From a virus: a stretch of 30,996 bases of DNA. Positions 169 through 22,135 of this stretch are shown one piece after another. A model generated the notes under the pieces. It saw only the letters and a list, made by a program, of their open reading frames with translations, had not been told where the DNA came from and ran no database searches. A program made the translations under genes and the position numbers. The DNA is taken from positions 1 to 30,996 of the IMG/VR virus record IMGVR_UViG_3300006919_000254. One strand, 5' to 3'. The first letter of the stretch is position 1. Each line of letters begins with the position of its first letter.

Positions 169-462
169 GTGATCATGCGGGATTTAGACGGTATGGAATT
201 GCAGGACAGACTGCTCAGAATCGAGGCAAAACTCGACAAGCTGACCGATCAGCTATCAGAACTGGGCAGGATCGATGAGCGCACCGATGCCGCTCATGCC
301 CGACTGAATCGCCATGAGCAGAGACTCGATTGGGTGGAGCGCGAGCACCGCGAACTGGTCGAGCAATTTCAAAAGCAATCCGGCTCAGCCCTCATTTGGG
401 AGCGGCTCGGCTGGATCATCTTCGCGGCGCTTCTCGCCATCGCAGGCCAGTGGCTCAAGTGA
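169..462 (+). CDS. XhlA-like coiled-coil protein with C-terminal membrane anchor
   Basis: A protein of 97 residues (GTG at 169), or 95 (ATG at 175) or 89 (ATG at 193); no start has a convincing ribosome site. Residues 9-70 are charged heptads typical of a coiled coil (RIEAKLDKL, RLNRHEQRLDWVERE), and residues 77-95 (WERLGWIIFAALLAIAGQW) form one membrane helix. This arrangement is that of the XhlA family (hemolysin XhlA/holin-associated), membrane proteins that act with holins in lysis or at the cell surface. It is the first gene after the candidate promoter and sits before the terminase small subunit, a position where phages often keep lysis genes. It could instead be an Rz-like spanin or another membrane-tethered coiled coil. 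The family call is by architecture, not by alignment. Confidence 0.6.
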   Translation: MIMRDLDGMELQDRLLRIEAKLDKLTDQLSELGRIDERTDAAHARLNRHEQRLDWVEREHRELVEQFQKQSGSALIWERLGWIIFAALLAIAGQWLK

Positions 463-539: not shown

Positions 540-983
540 ATGGATACCAATACAGGGGAAGGAAACCCAAAGAATCTGAACTGGCGTCAGTCCAAGTTTG
601 TGGCTGAGTTTGTTGAGCATGGCAACGCTACCAAAGCGGCCCAAGCGGCAGGCTATTCACACCCGAAACAGCAAGGCTCACGGTTGTTGACCCACGTTGA
701 CGTTCAAGCGGCTATTGAGGCTCATAAGCGGCAATTGATGGTGAGAGCGGTGGATAAACACGATTGGCTGATGGCCCGTCTTGAGGTCGAAGCGCTCGAC
801 GCCGAGAACAGTGATGCCGCCCGCGTTCGATCCCTTGAGCTAATAGGCAAGGTGATCGGTGCATTTGCCCCAGAAAAACAGCAGATCGAGACGGTTTCGA
901 GCGGATTCTTTGCGGATTTAGAGCCGGAAGAGGATTTGCCGGAGAATGTTTTGCCATTTAAATCAGATAGTTGCGGCGATTGA
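540..983 (+). CDS. terS: Terminase small subunit
   Basis: A 147-residue protein with the classic Terminase_2-type N-terminal DNA-binding region. Residues 16-50 carry the pattern Q-x-x-FVxEF, then GNATKAAQAAGYS, then GSRLL and VQAAI, typical of small terminase subunits. The family recognises the packaging start site on phage DNA, forms a ring, and hands DNA to the large subunit. The central part is helical; the tail is acidic (DLEPEEDLPE) and probably contacts TerL. The ATG at 540 is preceded by GTAAGGAAA around 521-529 and AGGA just before the start. The large subunit lies 2.4 kb downstream, separated by five small genes and an HNH nuclease, so the packaging pair is not adjacent. Confidence 0.88.
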   Translation: MDTNTGEGNPKNLNWRQSKFVAEFVEHGNATKAAQAAGYSHPKQQGSRLLTHVDVQAAIEAHKRQLMVRAVDKHDWLMARLEVEALDAENSDAARVRSLELIGKVIGAFAPEKQQIETVSSGFFADLEPEEDLPENVLPFKSDSCGD

Positions 984-1204: not shown

Positions 1205-1459
1205 ATGACAAAACCACGGAAAGGCAAAGCCAAGGTCCATAAGACCGCATCTGGCAAGAAAGTCTCCTACGGGCAGGCTGGAAAAGCCAAAGATGGTGGC
1301 CCACGGGTACGCGCTGGCACTAAGAAGGGTGACAGTTATTGCGCTCGGAGCCTCGGGATCAAGAAGCGGCTGTCCAAGAAGAAGCAAAACGACCCGAATA
1401 CGCCTAATAACCTGTCGCGGAAGCGGTGGAAGTGCAAGGGGGCTAAGTCAACCAAGTGA
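1205..1459 (+). CDS. Small basic conserved phage protein
   Basis: An 84-residue, strongly basic protein, rich in Lys and Arg throughout, with two Cys (in GDSYCARS and KWKCKG) and a DPNTPNNLSRKRWKC segment near the C-terminus. I recall similar small basic proteins (KTASGKKVS, DPNSPNNLSRKKWKC style) near the packaging genes of marine phages, with no established function. An in-frame ATG also exists at 1199, but the AGGGA at 1193-1197 suits the ATG at 1205 better, so I chose the shorter form. The charge suggests nucleic-acid binding. The stop overlaps the GTG of the next small gene. Confidence 0.7.
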   Translation: MTKPRKGKAKVHKTASGKKVSYGQAGKAKDGGPRVRAGTKKGDSYCARSLGIKKRLSKKKQNDPNTPNNLSRKRWKCKGAKSTK

Positions 1460-1569
1460 AAATATTTGAAGATCTTATTGTTTTGGCGCTTATTGCCTCG
1501 CTGATGATCCCAGCCGCCTTGATCACGTTCATGATTCTGGGTGCTTGGGCGGCGGAAAACGCATTTTAA
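1456..1569 (+). CDS. 37-residue single-pass membrane peptide
   Basis: A GTG at 1456 overlaps the TGA (1457-1459) of the preceding gene and opens a frame of 37 codons ending in TAA at 1567-1569. After a short polar head (MKIFED) the product is almost wholly hydrophobic (LIVLALIASLMIPAALITF and on to WAAENAF), a single membrane helix of about 25 residues. The stop/start overlap suggests translational coupling, which supports it as a real gene despite its length. Function unknown; small holins, antiholins and membrane-targeting peptides look like this. Chance hydrophobic frames of this length do occur, so confidence is moderate. Confidence 0.5.
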   Translation: MKIFEDLIVLALIASLMIPAALITFMILGAWAAENAF

Positions 1570-1623
1570 ATGCTATATCGGTATACAAAACCTAAATCAA
1601 TGTTTAGATTGGATTCATATTGC

Positions 1624-1714
1624 CCCCTGTGGGGCCGCAGGAGCGACGATCCAGCCCCTCCCCTTGGGCTTACCTCTCCCCGTGCATCGTTCAACCTGCG
1701 GCCTCTCAGGGGCT
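1624..1714 (+). promoter_or_regulatory. Structured RNA leader before the lipoprotein gene
   Basis: GGCCGCAGG (1633-1641) is the exact reverse complement of CCTGCGGCC (1695-1703). Inside it, ACGAT (1646-1650) pairs with ATCGT (1686-1690), extended by a G-U pair, across a small internal loop, and AGCCC (1653-1657) pairs with GGGCT (1666-1670). Outside, CCCC (1624-1627) can pair with GGGG (1631-1634). A competing partner exists: GGGGCT (1709-1714) is the reverse complement of AGCCCC (1653-1658). The element lies in the 168-base untranslated gap just upstream of the ATG at 1738. No T-tract follows, so it is not a simple terminator. A cis-regulatory RNA is my inference. Confidence 0.5.
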
Positions 1715-1737
1715 TCTACAGCAAATAGGGGAAAACC

Positions 1738-2550
1738 ATGAAAAAACTAGGGTTATTTCTTGCGGTATTAGCGGCAACTGGGTGCGCCTCCACGAACTCA
1801 GAGTATTACGAGGCGGTACAGAAGACGGCTCAAGCAAATGCCATGGCGAACAAAGCCAAGTTTGATGCCTTGTCAGCGATTGCGTCATCTGGAGATGGGC
1901 AGGCGGCGAGCGCGGCGGTAATGGCTTTGGCCCTAACCCAGACCCAGAACGTCGCTCCAGTCCCCCAGCAATCTCAGGCATTGCAGTGGGCGTCCATTCT
2001 GGCCACTCCGGTTACCAGCTTGGGCATGATGTGGATGCAGGCTGACTCCGCGAAAACCATGGCTCGGTATAACGCCGACGTGGATCTGGCTCGAATCTCT
2101 GCGGATGCCACGACTCAGCAGGCGCTCTACGGTTCATTCGTTGACACTGCCTCGGCGGGTTACGACGCAATGGGCAACATTGACTACACCCCGTTCGTTG
2201 ACGGCATGGTCACCTTGGGTACTGCGGGTATCGATGGGGCGGTAGATCTCGGCACGGCTGGGTTCGACGCAAACACGGCGATTGCCACGACTGGCATGGA
2301 TAACCTGACCAGCCTCGGCACTACCGGCATGAACAACCTGACTACCCTCGGCACTGCCAGCATTACGGGTATGCAGGCCATGGGTCTGGGCGGCTTCGAT
2401 GCGCTGATTACCTTGGATGCCGACAACAACGATTTGTACAGCAACGTCTGGACTCAGTACCAGTCCTCACTGCAAAGCATCTTAGACACGATGGTCACCT
2501 GCTCGGCTACTACTGCCGCAGATGGATCTCAGAGCATTACCTGCAACTAA
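1738..2550 (+). CDS. Lipoprotein with 11-residue repeats
   Basis: A 270-residue protein with a lipoprotein signal: positive MKK, hydrophobic run, then ATG-Cys at residue 16. The -3 residue is Ala rather than the preferred Leu, so the lipobox is slightly atypical. The residue after Cys is Ala, so the +2 rule of Gram-negatives predicts outer-membrane sorting. Residues about 35-125 are Ala-rich and probably helical. Residues about 150-225 hold degenerate units of 11-12 residues, such as TAGIDGAVDLG, TGMDNLTSLGT and TGMNNLTTLGTA. Ribosome site AGGGGAAAA precedes the ATG. I do not recognise a family. Phage lipoproteins are known as superinfection-exclusion factors, Rz1-type spanins (much shorter) or virion parts. 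Position between packaging genes fits any of these. Confidence 0.75.
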   Translation: MKKLGLFLAVLAATGCASTNSEYYEAVQKTAQANAMANKAKFDALSAIASSGDGQAASAAVMALALTQTQNVAPVPQQSQALQWASILATPVTSLGMMWMQADSAKTMARYNADVDLARISADATTQQALYGSFVDTASAGYDAMGNIDYTPFVDGMVTLGTAGIDGAVDLGTAGFDANTAIATTGMDNLTSLGTTGMNNLTTLGTASITGMQAMGLGGFDALITLDADNNDLYSNVWTQYQSSLQSILDTMVTCSATTAADGSQSITCN

Positions 2551-2559
2551 GGGCTGTAC

Positions 2560-2973
2560 ATGATTACGTTGAAGCGCTTTGCGTACCACCCCGAGGGTAC
2601 GTTGGGGATCATGCAGGTTCCGAATCACAAGCTGAGCTTGTTCTATACGGTGGAGCGCCCTTGGCTGGATAACGCTCCATTCCTGTCCTGCATCCCCGAA
2701 GGAGAGTATTCCATGGTCTGGAAGCGCTCACCCAAGTTTGACTGGTGTTACGAGATCGAAAACGTAAAGGGCCGGTCACACATCCTATTCCATGTAGCTA
2801 ATTTCCCCGAAGAAGTTGAAGGGTGCATCGGGGTCGGCACGTCGCTAATGGGAGATCGCATCGCCGTAGCAGAGTCCCGCAAAGGGATCGAGGCGTTCCA
2901 TGAGGCCACTGGGGGAAATCAATGGCGGTTAAAAATCGTCAATGCGCCACTTGCGGCATTGAAAAGCCTCTAG
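2560..2973 (+). CDS. DUF5675 family protein, possible peptidoglycan-acting enzyme
   Basis: A 137-residue protein matching the DUF5675 layout: a TVE (30-32) in place of the usual TLE, CIPEGEY (44-50), NVKGRSHILFH (68-78), Asn81 and GCIGVG (88-93), which resemble the family's IPxGxY, NVPGRxxILIH, GN and GCIxxG signature. The conserved His78 and Cys89 recall the His/Cys pair of L,D-transpeptidases, but a catalytic role is only a suggestion; the family has no agreed function. In other phages such proteins occur near lysis genes. It follows the lipoprotein by 9 bases. The last 52 bases overlap the HNH gene in another frame. No other endolysin candidate is seen in the window, which makes this one worth testing for lysis. 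Confidence 0.75.
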   Translation: MITLKRFAYHPEGTLGIMQVPNHKLSLFYTVERPWLDNAPFLSCIPEGEYSMVWKRSPKFDWCYEIENVKGRSHILFHVANFPEEVEGCIGVGTSLMGDRIAVAESRKGIEAFHEATGGNQWRLKIVNAPLAALKSL

Positions 2974-3389
2974 ATGAGTTTCCTCTTCATGGGAGGGGAG
3001 ACTACCGAAAGAGGGTTTGCAATCCCTGCCACAGATTAAAGCAGGAGACATACAGGTCCGCGAGTCCCGAGGCCTATCTATTTAGTCGGCTTAACAACAA
3101 GGCCCGCAAGGTAGAGGTCAGCATCACCAAGGAAGATCTGCGGGCGATGTGGGATTTGCAACAGGGAAAGTGCGCCGTCACGGGGATGCACATGACCTAC
3201 TACCCCCGCCGGATGAGGGATAACACGGGGCTAAACGCATCGATAGACAGGATCGACCAGAGCAAAGGCTATGAGAAGGGCAACGTCAGGCTGGTCTGCT
3301 ACAGGGTAAATCTCATGCGTCATGCGGGAGAGGACGCTGATCTGCTGTGGTGGTGCAAGCAAATCATTGAGGGGATAGAGGGTGAATGA
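2922..3389 (+). CDS. HNH endonuclease with N-terminal zinc finger
   Basis: A 155-residue protein. Residues 8-36 form a zinc-binding pair, CATC (8-11) and CNPC (33-36). Residues 83-131 form an HNH-type core: KCAVTG (83-88), SIDRID (107-112), KGYEKGNVRLV (115-125) and Asn130. The first half of the usual second zinc pair is present (Cys84), but Thr replaces the partner Cys. HNH proteins next to terminase genes (such as HK97 gp74) are needed for DNA packaging in several phages; others are free-standing homing nucleases. Position directly before terL, with a 8-base overlap of its start, suggests a packaging role. The ATG at 2922 has GGGGGAAA before it. The 52-base overlap with the upstream gene is unusual and could mark an invader. 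Confidence 0.82.
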   Translation: MAVKNRQCATCGIEKPLDEFPLHGRGDYRKRVCNPCHRLKQETYRSASPEAYLFSRLNNKARKVEVSITKEDLRAMWDLQQGKCAVTGMHMTYYPRRMRDNTGLNASIDRIDQSKGYEKGNVRLVCYRVNLMRHAGEDADLLWWCKQIIEGIEGE

Positions 3390-4971
3390 CGAGCAGTTGA
3401 TGGAGGCCGCGAAAGTCTTCAAGAAAGATTTTCCGGTCTACGCCAAGAACGTCTTGAAGGTCGTGAACAAGGAGGGCGAGCAAGTTCCTTTCCGCCTCAA
3501 CGACGGCCAGAAGATGGTTCATCAGCAACTGGAACAGCAACTCAAGGAGCAGGGGAAGATACGCGCCCTGATCCTGAAGGCCCGACAGGTGGGGATTTCA
3601 ACGTATGTGGAAGGTCGATTCTTCTGGAAGATTACGCAGACACGCAACGCCAATGCGTTCGTTCTTTCGCACCTTGCGGAGTCTACTAACGCGATCTTCA
3701 ACATGGTTCGCTCGTTCTACGATGGGGTTCCTCACGAAGCTTTCAAGCCAAAGCTCAGTAGTCAGAGTGCCGCCACCCTTGTATTCGACGAAATCAACTC
3801 GCGATACCGAGTGGGTACGGCACGATCAACTCAGACAGGGCGAGGACAGACTAACCGCTTTGTCCATGGATCGGAGGTTGCCTTCTACCCGCAGGGGGCA
3901 GATATCGTAGCCGGTTTGCTACAGACGGTCGGTGGCAACGGCAGTGAGGTGATTCTCGAATCCACCGCCAACGGTGCGGGTGGCTGGTTCTACGACCAAG
4001 TCATGAAGTCCCTGCGCGGGGAAACCGACTGGATTACTTGCTTTGTCCCATGGTTTGCCATGCAGGAATACCGCGCCCCAGTGCGTCCGTACTTCGAGCG
4101 CACCAAGGATGAGGAGCAACTGGCGGCTAAATACGGGCTGGATGATGAGCAACTCCAGTTCCGCCGCAACAAAATGGACGAACTGGGCGGGCATGACCTG
4201 TTCAGGCAGGAGTATCCGACTACCCCGATTGAAGCGTTCCTCACATCAGGCCGCTGTTTTGTTGAAGATGACGTCCTCGCTGACGCGGAAAAAGAGTGTT
4301 ATTCGCCCGATTTCATTGGTGAGTTCCGCAGTGACGGCATGTCGGAGCGTAGTTCTGGGCCATATCGGGAGTGGTATCCGCCCAATCCGGACGACTCCTA
4401 CGTTGTAGGCGTGGACGTCGCAGAGGGCTTGGCCTACGGAGACTACTCGGTCGCGCAAGTGCTCGACTCACGCGGCAGGCAGGTGGCTTGTTATCACGGG
4501 CATATCGATCCATGGGAGTGGGGCAACACCGTCGCCATGATTGCGAAAAGGTACAACACGGCCTATGTCATCGTCGAAAGAAACAACCACGGGCTGACGA
4601 CGCTTCGCCGCCTACAAGAATTGAACTACCCGTCGCTGTTTGTTGAAAGCTCAGTTGACGGTGCTTATGGAGACCGCATGACGAAGCGCGGTGGTTTCCT
4701 GACAACGAGTAAGACCAAGCCGCTAATCGTCGACAACCTCGCCGCACTACTTCGGCAACGTGATTCAGGCATTGCTGACCTTGAGTTAATCAAAGAACTT
4801 CGCACCTATGTCATTGATGAAAAAGGGGCTACCAATGCTCAAAACGGCTGTTATGATGATAGAGTGATGGCGTTTGCCATTGCCCTCCATGGATTGGCTT
4901 CAATGCCGCGACCCAAGAGTTTTCCGGTCGCAAGGCGCTTCAAAACTGTTGATACCGTGGCGGGCTGGTAA
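3382..4971 (+). CDS. terL: Terminase large subunit (packaging ATPase and nuclease)
   Basis: A 529-residue protein, normal TerL length. The N-terminal ATPase has a Walker A-like KARQVGIST (66-74), a Walker B-like FVHGSEVAF with Glu165, and a coupling motif ESTANG (193-198). The C-terminal RNase H-type nuclease has its acidic residues at Asp345 (VGVDVAEG), Glu399 (VIVERNNHG) and Asp492/Asp493 (CYDDRVMAFA). The enzyme cuts concatemeric phage DNA and pumps it through the portal into the procapsid. The start is a GTG at 3382, with GAGGGG at 3369-3374; it overlaps the HNH stop. The stop overlaps the portal ATG (TAATG). Walker B shows Ser-Glu where Asp-Glu is common, a variant I recall from other phage terminases. 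Confidence 0.95.
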   Translation: MNDEQLMEAAKVFKKDFPVYAKNVLKVVNKEGEQVPFRLNDGQKMVHQQLEQQLKEQGKIRALILKARQVGISTYVEGRFFWKITQTRNANAFVLSHLAESTNAIFNMVRSFYDGVPHEAFKPKLSSQSAATLVFDEINSRYRVGTARSTQTGRGQTNRFVHGSEVAFYPQGADIVAGLLQTVGGNGSEVILESTANGAGGWFYDQVMKSLRGETDWITCFVPWFAMQEYRAPVRPYFERTKDEEQLAAKYGLDDEQLQFRRNKMDELGGHDLFRQEYPTTPIEAFLTSGRCFVEDDVLADAEKECYSPDFIGEFRSDGMSERSSGPYREWYPPNPDDSYVVGVDVAEGLAYGDYSVAQVLDSRGRQVACYHGHIDPWEWGNTVAMIAKRYNTAYVIVERNNHGLTTLRRLQELNYPSLFVESSVDGAYGDRMTKRGGFLTTSKTKPLIVDNLAALLRQRDSGIADLELIKELRTYVIDEKGATNAQNGCYDDRVMAFAIALHGLASMPRPKSFPVARRFKTVDTVAGW

Positions 4972-12901: not shown

Positions 12902-13234
12902 ATGGCAAACACATTTAAAAATGCGGCTCTGGCGGATGTGAACAACTCCGCTTACGACACGCTGTATACCGCACCAGCGGCCACTACGACGGTTGTGCTT
13001 GGCTTGGCGATTGCCAACAAAACTGCACAGGGCGTCAGCGTACAGGTGCAGTTCTCAGACTCGTCTGGAAGCACTACGCACCAGCTTCTGGAGAACGTAG
13101 AGATTCCGGCCAAAACAACGCTGGAAACGCTGGCTGGTCAGAAGTACATCCTAGAGACGGGTGACGCGCTCAAGGTTCAGTCAGGTACGGCGTCTGCACT
13201 TGACGTTGTCTTAGGAATCATGGAGATCACCTAA
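12902..13234 (+). CDS. Small beta-rich tail-fibre-associated protein
   Basis: A 110-residue protein beginning at ATG 12902 without a clear ribosome site. Pattern: YDTLYTAPAATTTVVLGLAIANK, VQVQFSDSSG, ENVEIPAKTTLETLAGQKYILETGDALKV, a beta sandwich-like arrangement. Similar small proteins occur beside fibre genes in many marine phages; I recall no assigned function. Its stop overlaps the ATG of the first long fibre (TAATG), so the two are coupled and may work together. The long fibre has no N-terminal anchor, and this protein could supply it. Confidence 0.6.
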   Translation: MANTFKNAALADVNNSAYDTLYTAPAATTTVVLGLAIANKTAQGVSVQVQFSDSSGSTTHQLLENVEIPAKTTLETLAGQKYILETGDALKVQSGTASALDVVLGIMEIT

Positions 13235-14466
13235 TGACTCGCTCCAGAGTAAAAAAAGATTTCGCTGTAGGCATCGACGATAACGCTACGTCTACAGCCA
13301 TTACGATTGATAGCTCTGGCAATGTGGGGATTGGTGCGACTACTCCTTCCAGCTTATTGACTATCAGGAACGACTCCACAGTCGGCACAGATGTGGAGAT
13401 GTCTCGTTGGAGGACGGCGTCTGGCGGCAACCTGCGTTTCTATGTGTCGGACTTGGCGGCGTCTAATCCTGAGTGGAGAATTGAAAGCAACGCTTCTGAG
13501 CCGCTTTATTTGAGTAATGCTGGGTCAGGCTCAACTAGCTTTGTTGGAGTCAAAACCGCTGGCCTCGAACGTATGCGTATCGACTCAGAGGGCAACGTGG
13601 GGATTGGTGAGACTAATCCAGCACAAGCGTTAGTTGTTAGACGCTCCACTGGAAACGCATATCTTGATGTCGCACGGGCTACTCAATCTCAAGGGCAAGT
13701 GGCGTTACAACTAAGCGGAGGTACTGGCGGCACTAGCTGGATCATGTATCAATCGGGATCGTCTGACGACTTGCGTTTCTACGGAGACGGTAGCGATCGG
13801 ATGACTCTGACCTCTGAGGGCAAGCTAGGCATTGGAACAACAGGCCCAGCTTTCCCGCTTGACATAAGAGCGCCGTCTGGGGGTGGTGATGCCGTGTTGC
13901 GCGTTCACAATCAGCACACAGGCTCTGGTGACGATGCGATATTGCGCTTGTCTATCGCAGGAAACACAGCCGACAGCATTATCCAATTTGGCGACACCAA
14001 TGATTCCGATGTTGGCAGGATTGCTTATCACCACAACGGCAACACGATGCGTTTCTTTACAGGCGCGGATGAAGAAATGCGTCTGGAGAATGATGGCGAT
14101 CTACATGTTGAGAACAGCGTAATTGGTAGCTCTAGCACTGTTTCAGACGAGCGATTTAAAGATGACGTAACTACGATCACAGGTGCGTTAGATACTGTTG
14201 ATTCTTTGCGTGGCGTTACCTTTACGTGGAATACAGGAAAAAACACGGGCCAAACTGATTATGGTTTTATTGCTCAAGAAGTCGAGCAGGTTATTCCTGA
14301 AATTGTCCGAGACAAAAAACTGCCGCTGTTTGCAAGTGATGAAGACACTTTATACAAAACTGTGGACTATGCAAAAGTTTGCGTTGTGTTGGTCGAAGCC
14401 GTTTCAGAGCTACGGGCTGAAGTTCGATCACTAGAGACGCGCCTTTCGGCGTTGGAGGCTAACTAA
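13234..14466 (+). CDS. Long tail fibre 1 with C-terminal S74 chaperone
   Basis: A 410-residue protein. It starts almost directly in the fibre linker (GIDDNATSTAITIDSSG near residue 13) with no N-terminal anchor domain. The shaft holds repeats of the form ERMRIDSEGNVGIGETNPA, typical of trimeric beta-helix fibres. The C-terminal 107 residues are an intramolecular chaperone of the peptidase S74 type: Ser304 in SDERFK with Lys309 five residues later, then DTVDSLRGVTFTW, DYGFIAQEVEQVIPEIV and a coiled coil (AVSELRAEVRSLETRLSALEAN). The chaperone drives trimer folding and cuts itself off at Ser304. Its last 20 coding bases equal those of fibre 3, and part of it equals fibre 4. Confidence 0.85.
   Translation: MTRSRVKKDFAVGIDDNATSTAITIDSSGNVGIGATTPSSLLTIRNDSTVGTDVEMSRWRTASGGNLRFYVSDLAASNPEWRIESNASEPLYLSNAGSGSTSFVGVKTAGLERMRIDSEGNVGIGETNPAQALVVRRSTGNAYLDVARATQSQGQVALQLSGGTGGTSWIMYQSGSSDDLRFYGDGSDRMTLTSEGKLGIGTTGPAFPLDIRAPSGGGDAVLRVHNQHTGSGDDAILRLSIAGNTADSIIQFGDTNDSDVGRIAYHHNGNTMRFFTGADEEMRLENDGDLHVENSVIGSSSTVSDERFKDDVTTITGALDTVDSLRGVTFTWNTGKNTGQTDYGFIAQEVEQVIPEIVRDKKLPLFASDEDTLYKTVDYAKVCVVLVEAVSELRAEVRSLETRLSALEAN
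14269..14297 (+). repeat. 29-base identical block shared by fibre 1 and fibre 4
   Basis: The 29 bases at 14269-14297 (codons within IAQEVEQVIP) are identical to 19277-19305 in fibre 4, within longer divergent S74 domains. Synonymous positions are conserved too, which points to recent duplication or gene conversion rather than selection on protein alone. A second block, 20 bases at 14449-14468, equals 17961-17980 at the 3' ends of fibres 1 and 3, spanning the stop/start overlap. Confidence 0.85.
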
Positions 14467-16520: not shown

Positions 16521-17978
16521 ATGCCGTTCATCGGTAAACAGCCAAAGGTAGGCGCATTTCAACTGATTGACAGTATCACTACGTCAGCTACCGCTACTTA
16601 TGCGCTGACGGTGGACGGGTCAGCTTACTTTCCAGAGTCAGCCAGAAATTTAATTGTTTCACTGAACGGTGTAACGCAGGCTCCTGATTCTGCCTATACC
16701 GTTTCTGGATCAAACATTGTCTTTGACTCTGCGCTGACTGCCAGTGATGTAGTTGACTACATCTTGGTGATCGGTGATGCGGTAGACATTGGCATACCTT
16801 CAGATGGCACGGTTGGCACAAGCCAGATGAGTTATCCGCTGGGTAATTTTAGCTCTACTGGTATAGACGATAACGCCACAAGCACTGCGATTACGATTGA
16901 TTCAAGTCAGAACGTAGGTATTGGAGCCGCTCCAACCGCATCGTCAAGTTATAGGACACTAAACATTACTGGCGGTGCTGATGTGGGGGGCGCTTTACGT
17001 CTCTCTACCACAGCAAATGAGAACGGTCATTTATTCCAGTACAACGATGGCATTTACCTCTCTGGCGATGAAGTCACGTTTATTTCTACAGGTGACCCCG
17101 CTGTTGGCGGCGATGTAAAAACTGCGTATCGAGTTGACAGGACTGCCCAGCTACATAGGTGGTTTGACCCCTTAGATGGCACAACTGAGCGAATGCGCAT
17201 CAACTCCAGCGGCAACGTGGGGATTGGCGTTACTGACCCTGCTCAAGAACTAGAGGTGGCAGGAGCAATACTGGCATCATCCGTTCCTTACTCCTCAAAT
17301 CAAGACGAGGCTTATTTAATTGCGGGAACCGCTGGGTGGACAGGGGCTACAACAAACTGGAACACGTTTGGTTTCCAGCACAGAATCAAGACAGATGGTG
17401 GTGGCGTCCCACGGGTAACTATAGACAATGCCGCGGGTGAGGTGTTCTCTGTTTATAACTCAGGCGTTACGGTTGTTGGTGGGCAGACCCCTGCTGGAGG
17501 GGGCGCAGGCATATTTGGCGCTCTTCAGGCAATAGGCTTTGGTTCTAGGTCAGGCGTGTTGGGATCGCACGGGCCTAATTGCTTCAATATCTATTGGTCT
17601 AGTCCCTCTCTACAGGCGTGGGTGGATTCAACCAATATTGGTACGTTCTCCCTGACATCAGACTACAGAATAAAAAGAAATATAGAGTCAATGTCGGAAC
17701 CTGCATTAGCAAGGATCGCACAGTTAAGGCCCGTCACCTATCAGCCAGCAAATTTTAAGGATCTCTTTGAGGAATCCGACGAAATTAAAGAGGGATTTAT
17801 TGCGCATGAGCTTCAAGAGGTAATTCCAAGTGCAGTTGACGGAGAAAAAGATGCTGAAGATCAAATACAGAGTTTAAAAGTGGACGCTTTATGCGCTGTC
17901 TTAACCAAAGCCATCCAAGAACAGCAAGCAATCATCGAAGATTTACAGACCCGACTATCTGCGTTGGAGGCTAACTAA
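16521..17978 (+). CDS. Long tail fibre 3 with S74 chaperone (second subtype)
   Basis: A 485-residue protein. Anchor module: MPFIGKQPKVGAFQ, then NLIVSLNGVTQAPDSAYTV, similar in layout to fibre 2. A GIDDNATSTAITIDSSQ linker and GNVGIGVTDPAQELEVAG repeats follow. The C-terminal 106 residues are an S74 chaperone of a different subtype from fibres 1 and 4: Ser380 in SDYRIK with Lys385, ALARIAQLRPVTYQP, EGFIAHELQEVIPSAVDGEKD, then a coiled coil. The catalytic Ser-Lys pair is intact, so self-cleavage is expected. Overlaps fibre 4 (TAATG). Confidence 0.85.
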   Translation: MPFIGKQPKVGAFQLIDSITTSATATYALTVDGSAYFPESARNLIVSLNGVTQAPDSAYTVSGSNIVFDSALTASDVVDYILVIGDAVDIGIPSDGTVGTSQMSYPLGNFSSTGIDDNATSTAITIDSSQNVGIGAAPTASSSYRTLNITGGADVGGALRLSTTANENGHLFQYNDGIYLSGDEVTFISTGDPAVGGDVKTAYRVDRTAQLHRWFDPLDGTTERMRINSSGNVGIGVTDPAQELEVAGAILASSVPYSSNQDEAYLIAGTAGWTGATTNWNTFGFQHRIKTDGGGVPRVTIDNAAGEVFSVYNSGVTVVGGQTPAGGGAGIFGALQAIGFGSRSGVLGSHGPNCFNIYWSSPSLQAWVDSTNIGTFSLTSDYRIKRNIESMSEPALARIAQLRPVTYQPANFKDLFEESDEIKEGFIAHELQEVIPSAVDGEKDAEDQIQSLKVDALCAVLTKAIQEQQAIIEDLQTRLSALEAN

Positions 17979-19456
17979 TGGCTATCACTAAACTCAACAG
18001 CCAAGCGATCCCACCGAACACCATCATTGAGTCTGATCTGTCGTATCCGCTGACTAACTTTAGCTCAACGGGTATTGACGACAATGCGACAAGCACTGCG
18101 GTCACTATTGATGCCAACGAGAACGTCGGGATCAACGAGTCCTCACCCGACGAGTTACTTCACGTCAAAGGCCCAGATGAAGTCGTTATCAAAATTGAGG
18201 CAACTGGCTCTCAAGCCCCCACGCTATACGATGGCTCACCGAAGCTCCAGCTTGTGCCAATGGCAACGAATGGAATTACAGGCGAGGCAATTATAGAGGC
18301 GATTGCTCCGAGTAGTTTTTTGCATGGCTCTCACCTGATCTTTCGTGCCGGTAAATCACCAAATCAGTATGACGGGACGAACTACACCGGCGGCTCTTTC
18401 TCGTTTCATGATGGCAACACACAGGTATGCAGTATCTCCGACCAAGGAATCGAAGCCGCTAATTTCAAGGCTACTTCAGGCGGCACGACAGCGCTTTCTT
18501 TGACTTCTACGGGCCGCGTAACCACAGGTGAAAACCTTGAAGTTGCGGGCACTATTACAAGCGGTCAGATCTTTGCCAGTGACACAGTAACAACTGGCTC
18601 TCCATCAAATGGTGCGGCTGATTTTCTATCCCTACTGAATAACGATACGGGCGGTAACCACCATATAGGTATTAAGTTTGCCAGCGCAGATGCGGGAGGA
18701 AATCTTCGCCACGGCGCTTACGTTACCGCATTAAAAGATGGCACATGGGGAGATGGCACTGGCTCATATCCCATGCACTTAACATTTTGGACGCGACCCG
18801 CTTCGAGTGGGGTTCAGATTGAGCGGATGCGTATTCAGTCTAACGGTAACGTGGGGGTCGGTACTAATAGCCCTATCGCCAAACTTGATGTCAGGGGCGA
18901 AACTCATACTACTGGCATAAGGATTAAGCGGAACGATACCTCGGGCATAAACAACCCTAACGATGACTACGTCACCCTAAGTCTTGCTGATAACGACTTG
19001 AATTTCGTTATAGATAATGACGCGGATGGCGATGCAGGAAATTATCGTTTTTTTAAAAGAGCGGCTAACGCGGATGTCGAGCTATGTCGAATTGACAGCA
19101 ACGGTAATGTCCATGCGGACGGCAACGTGGTTGCGTACTCAACAACCATCTCAGACGAGCGCCTTAAAGATAACGTACAGGGCATTACAGGCGCACTAGA
19201 CACTGTAGACGCACTGCGCGGTGTGACCTACACATGGAAACAAGGGTCGCGCGAAGGCAAACGTGACTATGGTGTGATTGCTCAAGAAGTCGAGCAGGTT
19301 ATTCCAGAGATCGTACACGACACCATGATGCCTTTGCTGGGCGACGAAGAAACTGTTTATAAGACGGTGGACTACGAAAAGCTTTGTGCTGTTCTCATTA
19401 GCGCTGTATCTGAGTTGCGGGCTGAAGTGGAGGAACTCCGTGCCTCTCGTAACTAG
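17978..19456 (+). CDS. Long tail fibre 4 with S74 chaperone
   Basis: A 492-residue protein. The N-terminus is short (MAITKLNSQAIPPNTIIESDLSYPL) and enters the GIDDNATSTAVTIDANE linker early. The shaft has ERMRIQSNGNVGVGTNSPIAKLDVRG and a unique middle (GTWGDGTGSYPMHLTFWTR). The C-terminal 101 residues are an S74 chaperone with Ser392 in SDERLK and Lys397, DTVDALRGVTYTW, DYGVIAQEVEQVIPEIV and a short coiled coil. It is closest to the chaperone of fibre 1 with a 29-base identity. The end of the gene overlaps the glycine-rich adhesin start. Confidence 0.85.
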   Translation: MAITKLNSQAIPPNTIIESDLSYPLTNFSSTGIDDNATSTAVTIDANENVGINESSPDELLHVKGPDEVVIKIEATGSQAPTLYDGSPKLQLVPMATNGITGEAIIEAIAPSSFLHGSHLIFRAGKSPNQYDGTNYTGGSFSFHDGNTQVCSISDQGIEAANFKATSGGTTALSLTSTGRVTTGENLEVAGTITSGQIFASDTVTTGSPSNGAADFLSLLNNDTGGNHHIGIKFASADAGGNLRHGAYVTALKDGTWGDGTGSYPMHLTFWTRPASSGVQIERMRIQSNGNVGVGTNSPIAKLDVRGETHTTGIRIKRNDTSGINNPNDDYVTLSLADNDLNFVIDNDADGDAGNYRFFKRAANADVELCRIDSNGNVHADGNVVAYSTTISDERLKDNVQGITGALDTVDALRGVTYTWKQGSREGKRDYGVIAQEVEQVIPEIVHDTMMPLLGDEETVYKTVDYEKLCAVLISAVSELRAEVEELRASRN

Positions 19457-21109: not shown

Positions 21110-21319
21110 ATGAGTGAAAACACAATTGAAATTGACGGCGTTAAGCATGATGTGGACTCAATGACAGATGAGCAGAAGTATTTCATCAGTCAGATTCAGG
21201 ATCTGCAAAAGCGAGCGGCACAGCTTCGATTCTCTATGGATCAACTGACGGTGGCGCAGGACGTGTTCACTAAAAACCTAATGTCATCGTTACAGCAGGA
21301 GGAAGAGGTAGCGGCATGA
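21110..21319 (+). CDS. DUF6447-like small protein
   Basis: A 69-residue protein with GGGAGAGAAAC before the ATG. It begins with a short strand pair (NTIEIDGVKHDVDSMTDEQKYFISQ) and continues as one helix pair (IQDLQKRAAQLRFSMDQLTVAQDVF), a layout I associate with DUF6447. Such proteins occur in marine phages close to tail or lysis genes and are uncharacterised. ATGA overlap with the next gene implies coupled translation. Confidence 0.65.
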   Translation: MSENTIEIDGVKHDVDSMTDEQKYFISQIQDLQKRAAQLRFSMDQLTVAQDVFTKNLMSSLQQEEEVAA

Positions 21320-21558
21320 ACTGGGTAATGGAATACCTAATGAATATTTTGGCGGCAATCAGCCAGCTTTTTAATGCCTTGATCGGGGGCGATCCCAATT
21401 TAACCGTAAGTGCTAGGTGCTATTTGAGCAGAGAGCATTGGTTTTGGGGGGCATTACGAAAGCTACTCAACTTGGTTTTTTGGAGGGAGGAAGACCATTG
21501 TTATAAGTCGTGGAGGGCTGACGTGGCCTTTTGCGACACCGTCAGCGCGGTGAAATAG
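21316..21558 (+). CDS. Small membrane-associated protein with Cys/Trp-rich tail
   Basis: An 80-residue protein. Residues 1-23 form an amphipathic or membrane segment (MNWVMEYLMNILAAISQLFNAL), followed by a GGDPNLTVSAR loop and a Trp-rich part with Cys35, Cys62 and Cys73 (REHWFWGALRKLLNLVF, EEDHCYKSWRADVAFC). I recall similar proteins (NAxxGGxxxxTxSxR then DxHCxxAW) in phages, without known role. The location directly before the holin suggests lysis or membrane work. It overlaps both neighbours (ATGA at the start, TAGTG at the end). Confidence 0.58.
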   Translation: MNWVMEYLMNILAAISQLFNALIGGDPNLTVSARCYLSREHWFWGALRKLLNLVFWREEDHCYKSWRADVAFCDTVSAVK

Positions 21559-21938
21559 TGAACCTGATAAGTCTTTTAGTCGGCCCAGTAACCGACCTTG
21601 TGGGTGGCTTCCTCAAAAACAAGCGAGAGGAGAGTCAGGCTAGGCACGAAGCAAAGATGGAGGTCATAAGGAATGATGCCAACTGGGAAACCCTTATGGC
21701 TGGGGCTTCAGCGTCTAGCTGGAAAGATGAGTGGTTCACCATTCTGCTCTCTACTCCAATCCTTGCTGTTATATGGGGCGTTGCTATCGATGATGGCCGT
21801 GTCATGGATCGCGTACATGACGCTCTTGGTGCTCTGGCTACTCTTCCTGAGTGGTATCAATACCTTCTCTTCGTCGCAGTAACAGCGAGCTTTGGCATCC
21901 GTGGTGCCGACAAAATTATGGAGTTGCGGAAAAAATGA
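21558..21938 (+). CDS. Holin of the GTA three-TM family
   Basis: A 126-residue protein from GTG 21558, overlapping the previous TAG. Residues 1-18 are hydrophobic, 20-45 charged, then SASSWKDEWFTILLSTPILAVIWG (about 51-74) and LPEWYQYLLFVAVTASFGIRGADK (about 97-118). The SWKDEW motif ahead of a helix and the FGIR end match the GTA_holin_3TM family, named for three membrane segments and first described in gene transfer agents. Holins open the inner membrane at lysis time. No ATG is near, and the longer reading from 21531 includes the neighbour's tail, so GTG is the best start. Confidence 0.78.
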   Translation: MNLISLLVGPVTDLVGGFLKNKREESQARHEAKMEVIRNDANWETLMAGASASSWKDEWFTILLSTPILAVIWGVAIDDGRVMDRVHDALGALATLPEWYQYLLFVAVTASFGIRGADKIMELRKK

Positions 21939-22135
21939 ATCCCGAAGCCTTTGACCAGTGGCGGGTTATTCCGAGGCTGTTGATGATTACGATGCTCATC
22001 AGTACCTACCGCGTGGTGGAGTGGTACATGGAATTGCCTGATCCCTCTACCCAGCAGACCACCTTGGTTTCAATTATGACTGGGATGCTTTCCGGTTCCT
22101 TTGGTCTGTTCCTTGGAAGCGGGAGGAAAGAGTAA
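21935..22135 (+). CDS. Small two-helix membrane protein, possible holin partner
   Basis: A 66-residue protein from ATG 21935 (ATGA overlap with the holin stop). Two membrane helices are seen: about 16-34 (RLLMITMLISTYRVVEW) and about 45-61 (LVSIMTGMLSGSFGLFLG), joined by YMELPDPSTQQ. Similar proteins (DQWRxxPRLL, LPDPTxxQ) follow holins in marine phages. It could be an antiholin, a second holin or a spanin-like accessory; the sequence does not tell which. Confidence 0.68.
   Translation: MNPEAFDQWRVIPRLLMITMLISTYRVVEWYMELPDPSTQQTTLVSIMTGMLSGSFGLFLGSGRKE

Follow-up and report, generated by a model that had tools for sequence, protein, structure and literature searches.

A phage lipoprotein family with a unit-wise variable 11-residue rod, a structured RNA leader and lysis-type gene neighbours

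A published survey describes lipoprotein genes as rare in phages and as the usual sign of a spanin; in the same survey, conserved Cys pairs were reported for o-spanins, and approximately 13% of the Gram-negative phages covered, several of them marine, had no recognisable spanin (PMC6139136). The o-spanins, exemplified by lambda Rz1 and T4 PseT.2, are outer-membrane lipoproteins encoded in or near the lysis genes, and the u-spanin gp11 of phage T1 is a single lipoprotein with a long periplasmic part and no partner. Llp of T5 and Cor of phi80, T1 and N15 are further phage lipoproteins, which act in superinfection exclusion.

Here, we describe a phage lipoprotein, referred to as LIPO, that recalls all of these and matches none in full. 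The stretch of DNA analysed (the window) is a 30,996-base record of an uncultivated virus (positions 1 to 30,996 of IMG/VR record IMGVR_UViG_3300006919_000254) and contains a podovirus-like late region. From its sequence and gene neighbours, we tentatively read LIPO as an outer-membrane lysis lipoprotein, spanin-like in role, a reading that we hold to be possible and still short of probable.

A lipoprotein gene among packaging genes and its uncultivated relatives

The late genes of the window run in the order small terminase, 86-aa basic protein, LIPO, DUF5675, HNH endonuclease, large terminase, portal, scaffold and major capsid (Table 1). LIPO thus lies between the two terminase genes, in agreement with a preliminary description of this DNA that had placed it in the packaging region. 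The closest large terminase from a cultured phage, that of Roseobacter phage CRP-7, is 35% identical. Several fibre-like proteins with related sequences are encoded further downstream (13234-14466, 16521-17978 and 17978-19456), and three fibre-like proteins of the window carry, judged by eye, an S74-type chaperone-like ending.

Table 1. Features of the LIPO locus and of other window genes discussed in the text
Feature	Position	Strand	Remarks
XhlA/holin-like small protein	169..462	+	coiled coil, then C-terminal transmembrane segment; weak match
Terminase small subunit	540-983		5' of LIPO
37-aa single-transmembrane ORF	1456..1569	+	GTG overlaps stop of preceding gene
Conserved structured RNA leader	1606..1737	+	132 bases, directly before LIPO start codon
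Leader helix 1	1622-1639/1697-1713	+	
Leader helix 2	1645-1650/1686-1691	+	
Leader helix 3	1653-1657/1666-1670	+	
Shine-Dalgarno AGGGG	1727..1731	+	3' of leader hairpin, read from sequence
Lipoprotein gene LIPO	1738..2550	+	270 aa, ATG start
Signal peptide and lipobox MKKLGLFLAVLAATGC	1738..1785	+	predicted lipidated Cys16, Ala at +2
Conserved domain, residues 17-159	1786..2214	+	holds most invariant residues
Six exact 11-residue units, residues 160-225	2215..2412	+	consensus LGTAG[IMF][DN][GN][LA][VT][TD]
NN-type cap, residues 226-270	2413..2547	+	helix end, then beta-hairpin bounded by Cys255 and Cys269
DUF5675 (Pfam PF18925)	2560..2973	+	9 nt after LIPO stop; endolysin candidate by position only
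Terminase large subunit	3382-4971		3' of LIPO
Membrane protein (phrog_2524)	21531..21938	+	holin candidate

LIPO begins with a signal peptide whose lipobox reads LAATGC-A, Cys16 being followed by Ala17. The lipobox with Ala at +2 noted earlier is therefore present, and the signal extends to the whole family: each of the 92 distinct members with an intact N-terminus carries the lipobox Cys, followed by Ala, Ser or Thr and never by Asp. A lipobox combined with an outer-membrane sorting signal, as found here, is what would be expected of an o-spanin.

The family itself is unnamed. An alignment query recovered it in 214 IMG/VR stretches (122 with a single query), and the fetched IMG/VR loci yielded 92 distinct mature proteins. 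Its phages are uncultivated and mostly marine, and LIPO shares their sequence stretches with lysis-type and DNA-packaging genes. Most invariant positions fall in residues 23-135, among them a Trp/Met-rich stretch from Q83 to W99 (QWAS..LA.P...LGMMW). No relative was found by tblastn among 50,697 phage records, and two scans of bacterial and archaeal genomes, covering 84,980 species, gave none either; LIPO matched no PHROG profile, its best Pfam match had an E value of 0.19, and sequence and fold searches of the PDB returned chance matches only. Weak PHROG matches to Cor covered residues 1-22, that is, the signal peptide, and nothing of the mature protein. In a scan of 44 members, matches to Cor and spanin PHROGs spanned approximately residues 1-40, again the signal peptide and lipobox, and homology was rejected.

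These searches bear on whether LIPO could be a virion component that has kept a lipoprotein-type leader. Capsid and packaging genes surround LIPO, and in one gene order it comes one gene behind that of the major capsid protein, which would suit such a role; however, neither PHROG virion families nor solved structures gave a match, and a Sec/lipoprotein signal would export the protein from the cytoplasm, where tailed-phage heads are assembled. We thus consider a virion role highly improbable. The preliminary description had itself named clear homology to a virion protein as evidence against its reading, and none was found.

A rod of exact 11-residue units and a covarying leader

Within LIPO, the identity at lag 11 is 26, whereas shuffling leads one to expect 7.5 (z 7.3, 0/2000); lag 22 gives a further peak, and lag 12 gives none. 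The repeats first described as units of 11-12 residues in the C-terminal third are thus real, with the period fixed at 11 and the position corrected to 60-83% of the protein. Two cap types, NN and W, occur in the family. The distance from a DYxxF motif to the cap ranges from 45 to 144 residues for the NN type, being 1 modulo 11 in 49 of 50 proteins, and from 58 to 157 residues for the W type, being 3 modulo 11 in 30/30. Because the spacings of each cap type fall, with one exception, in one class modulo 11, rod lengths change by whole 11-residue units; the register is kept in 79 of the 80 measurable members, and 79 proteins carry 3 to 12 units each and 484 in total. Indeed, an otherwise nearly identical protein from contig L083 has one additional exact 33-base unit, making the gain of a unit visible in the DNA.

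The 484 units are rich in Gly and Thr and essentially lack Lys, Arg and His. They may bear some resemblance to the repeats of type I antifreeze proteins, which are likewise 11 residues long. AlphaFold models the rod as one helix over residues 151-250 (pLDDT mostly 74-85, compared with 61 overall) ending in a hairpin, with the conserved domain poorly modelled. The helical amphipathic pattern at 11/3 was not significant by permutation (fraction 0.23); given this result and the Gly/Thr-rich composition, the helix stays putative. Of the amphipathic hendecad bundle originally envisaged, a hendecad helix is plausible, and AlphaFold models it as a single helix; bundle formation and amphipathicity stay hypothetical. 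Beyond the rod, a C-terminal Cys pair spaced by 10-15 residues is present in 84 of 92 members and is predicted to close a disulfide.

The RNA preceding LIPO folds into a long three-helix hairpin. Across 17 distinct homologous leaders, 96.8% of cells are paired and 11 pairs have changed on both sides; none of 500 shuffles reached any of these measures, and sliding the partner lowered pairing to 52% or less. The claim that LIPO has its own RNA leader is therefore well borne out, and since no Rfam family matched at the gathering threshold or at E 1, the leader is a structured RNA new to Rfam with strong covariation. A covariance model located the leader in three settings. In the window's gene order, it precedes LIPO; in four contigs without LIPO (L229, L235, L236 and L333), DUF5675 comes straight after it; and in two others (L352 and L356), the gene for a 125-aa secreted protein stands between it and DUF5675. 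These placements assign the RNA to the operon and mark the place of LIPO as a variable slot in which exported proteins are encoded. The signal peptide of the 125-aa protein is an ordinary one, and the protein has two or more Cys residues; it is unrelated to LIPO and fills the LIPO slot.

Lysis-type neighbours and the possible roles of LIPO

DUF5675 is the next gene after LIPO in 20/20 loci of the window's gene order, with a gap of 0-10 bp. Of 89 loci, in several unrelated gene orders, 73 were found to contain an M15 endolysin or DUF5675, at a median distance of 371 bp and in 63 cases at no more than 3 kb. The endolysin is further off, at 3.3-4.6 kb, in one gene order. Outside the window's gene order, the neighbours include the M15 endolysin, XhlA-like or 3TM holins and other small membrane genes. 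The M15 gene is assigned to an endolysin family by both PHROG (5.9e-33) and Pfam, and one neighbour is a GTA_holin_3TM.

The two genes largely exclude one another: among 24 contigs, 13 carry DUF5675 without M15, and M15 is present in 10 of the other 11, a pattern that may go back to one historical event. In two Mu-like Vibrio phages with no other annotated endolysin, DUF5675 is found at the endolysin position; in several cultured phages, it has a transmembrane or holin gene nearby; and in contig L269, it stands behind a pair resembling an i-spanin and a Pro-rich lipoprotein, whose spanin matches are weak. These endolysin-like positions, the exclusion of M15 and the holin- or spanin-like neighbours make DUF5675 a plausible lytic enzyme and, by position, a plausible replacement for the M15 endolysin. 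H78, N81, G88 and C89 are invariant in DUF5675, the first and last of these hinting at an enzyme that depends on Cys. The His...Gly-Cys motif, with H78 and C89, raised the idea of a YkuD-type L,D-transpeptidase, which neither sequence nor fold searches of the PDB supported.

Other small membrane genes of the window deserve mention. The 37-aa ORF is coupled to the basic 86-aa gene through a GTGA overlap and may encode a pinholin or lysis regulator; it precedes LIPO in many, and not all, of the contigs sharing the window's gene order. Three small genes at 21316-22135 (phrog_3342, phrog_2524 and phrog_10198) encode at least two membrane proteins, and in other gene orders homologues of these genes stand beside the lipoprotein or endolysins. 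A homologue of the phrog_2524 protein adjoins an annotated endolysin in Vibrio phage K396.

In a six-frame scan of contigs from nine phages (31-58 kb), all of them fragments, LIPO alone came out as a credible lipobox ORF preceded by a ribosome-binding site. Its standing as the sole lipoprotein of the scanned contigs, the export signal and the gene neighbourhood favour a role in the outer membrane at lysis. LIPO would be secreted, carry a lipid on Cys16 and be sorted, late in infection, to the outer membrane, with the conserved domain next to the membrane, the 11-residue units forming a stiff rod of adjustable length and a small hairpin, closed by a disulfide, tipping this rod. As the cycle ends, LIPO would act together with the presumed wall-cleaving DUF5675 of the same operon, which would take the slot filled by the M15 endolysin in other members, and would help to breach the outer membrane, as spanins do elsewhere. 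The leader RNA would probably set the translation or timing of the LIPO-DUF5675 unit.

Several observations stand against this lysis role. PF03245, the i-spanin profile, was absent from 14 contigs, the window holds no convincing type II membrane neighbour, and LIPO has no C-terminal transmembrane segment of the u-spanin type, its C-terminus being modelled as a beta-hairpin. LIPO is also bigger than most known o-spanins, the enzymatic role of DUF5675 is putative, its model having no fold match in the PDB, and the replacement of LIPO by the unrelated secreted protein in two contigs is reminiscent of an accessory-gene slot. In addition, no credible lipoprotein was found in five DUF5675 contigs lacking LIPO (26-55 kb, likewise fragments). 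The LIPO function is therefore dispensable or met otherwise, and the notion that every such phage must carry a lipoprotein is weakened.

Exclusion and other envelope roles retain some weight because the slot is variable, the stalk and caps change and LIPO is dispensable. For superinfection exclusion, LIPO would bind the phage's own receptor, either on the periplasmic side, as T5 Llp does, or at the surface by means of its stalk, and so stop adsorption or injection. An optional gene in a slot for exported proteins would fit, and a stalk of varying length with two cap types on a constant base would suit different receptors; moreover, lytic phages are among the carriers of known exclusion lipoproteins, in which a disulfide forms within the molecule (PMC9586334). 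However, Llp has approximately 61 residues and its gene adjoins that of the receptor-binding protein (PMC9586334), whereas LIPO exceeds 200 residues and, in the main gene orders, has genes for lysis, capsid or packaging beside it. We regard exclusion as rather unlikely. The earlier suggestion that LIPO blocks superinfection or acts in release thus holds better in its second half, with DUF5675 next to LIPO and M15 or holins nearby elsewhere; exclusion gained no positive evidence, the Cor matches being confined to the signal peptide.

Still less likely, in our view, is a late accessory envelope protein, such as an adhesin, a vesicle or cell-wall protein or a shield, needed for neither lysis nor exclusion. 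The absence of LIPO from close DUF5675 relatives, the other secreted protein in its slot and the composition of the rod would agree with such a protein, but the wide distribution of the family, the strongly conserved residues 23-135, shared by different gene orders, and the recurring lysis neighbourhood argue against it.

Comparison with known systems

The LIPO family is widespread, lies beside lysis genes and is the sole lipoprotein in the scanned contigs, making it a candidate for another way through the outer membrane. With rods that differ by whole units, the family supplies a natural series for probing the effect of rod length, and the leader RNA adds a new candidate regulator of a late phage operon. 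The lysis reading could be taken further, to a new class in which a single lysis lipoprotein uses its rod as a length-adjustable, periplasm-spanning ruler with no i-spanin or second anchor and a new RNA times the lysis operon; we judge this extended version unlikely.

Like the o-spanins, LIPO is a phage outer-membrane lipoprotein, by prediction, in or near lysis genes, and its Cys pair parallels the conserved Cys of many o-spanin families; it differs in its larger size, its repeat rod, the lack of a linked i-spanin among the genes searched and a sequence match limited to the signal peptide. Like T1 gp11, it would be a single lipoprotein with a long periplasmic part and no partner, but it ends in a Cys-bounded beta-hairpin. 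LIPO is not filed as a spanin, because it has neither the C-terminal transmembrane segment of a u-spanin nor the linked i-spanin of a two-component o-spanin, although it may work like one. With Llp and Cor, it shares the status of a phage lipoprotein with a likely intramolecular disulfide, yet it is approximately four times larger, is stalked and is not beside receptor-binding genes in its main gene orders. The apolipoprotein, synuclein and LEA repeats are unlike the LIPO units in composition. With the hendecad helical-repeat proteins, finally, LIPO shares an exact 11-residue unit and a predicted helix, and it is set apart from them by Gly/Thr-rich units with essentially no basic residue and no significant amphipathicity.
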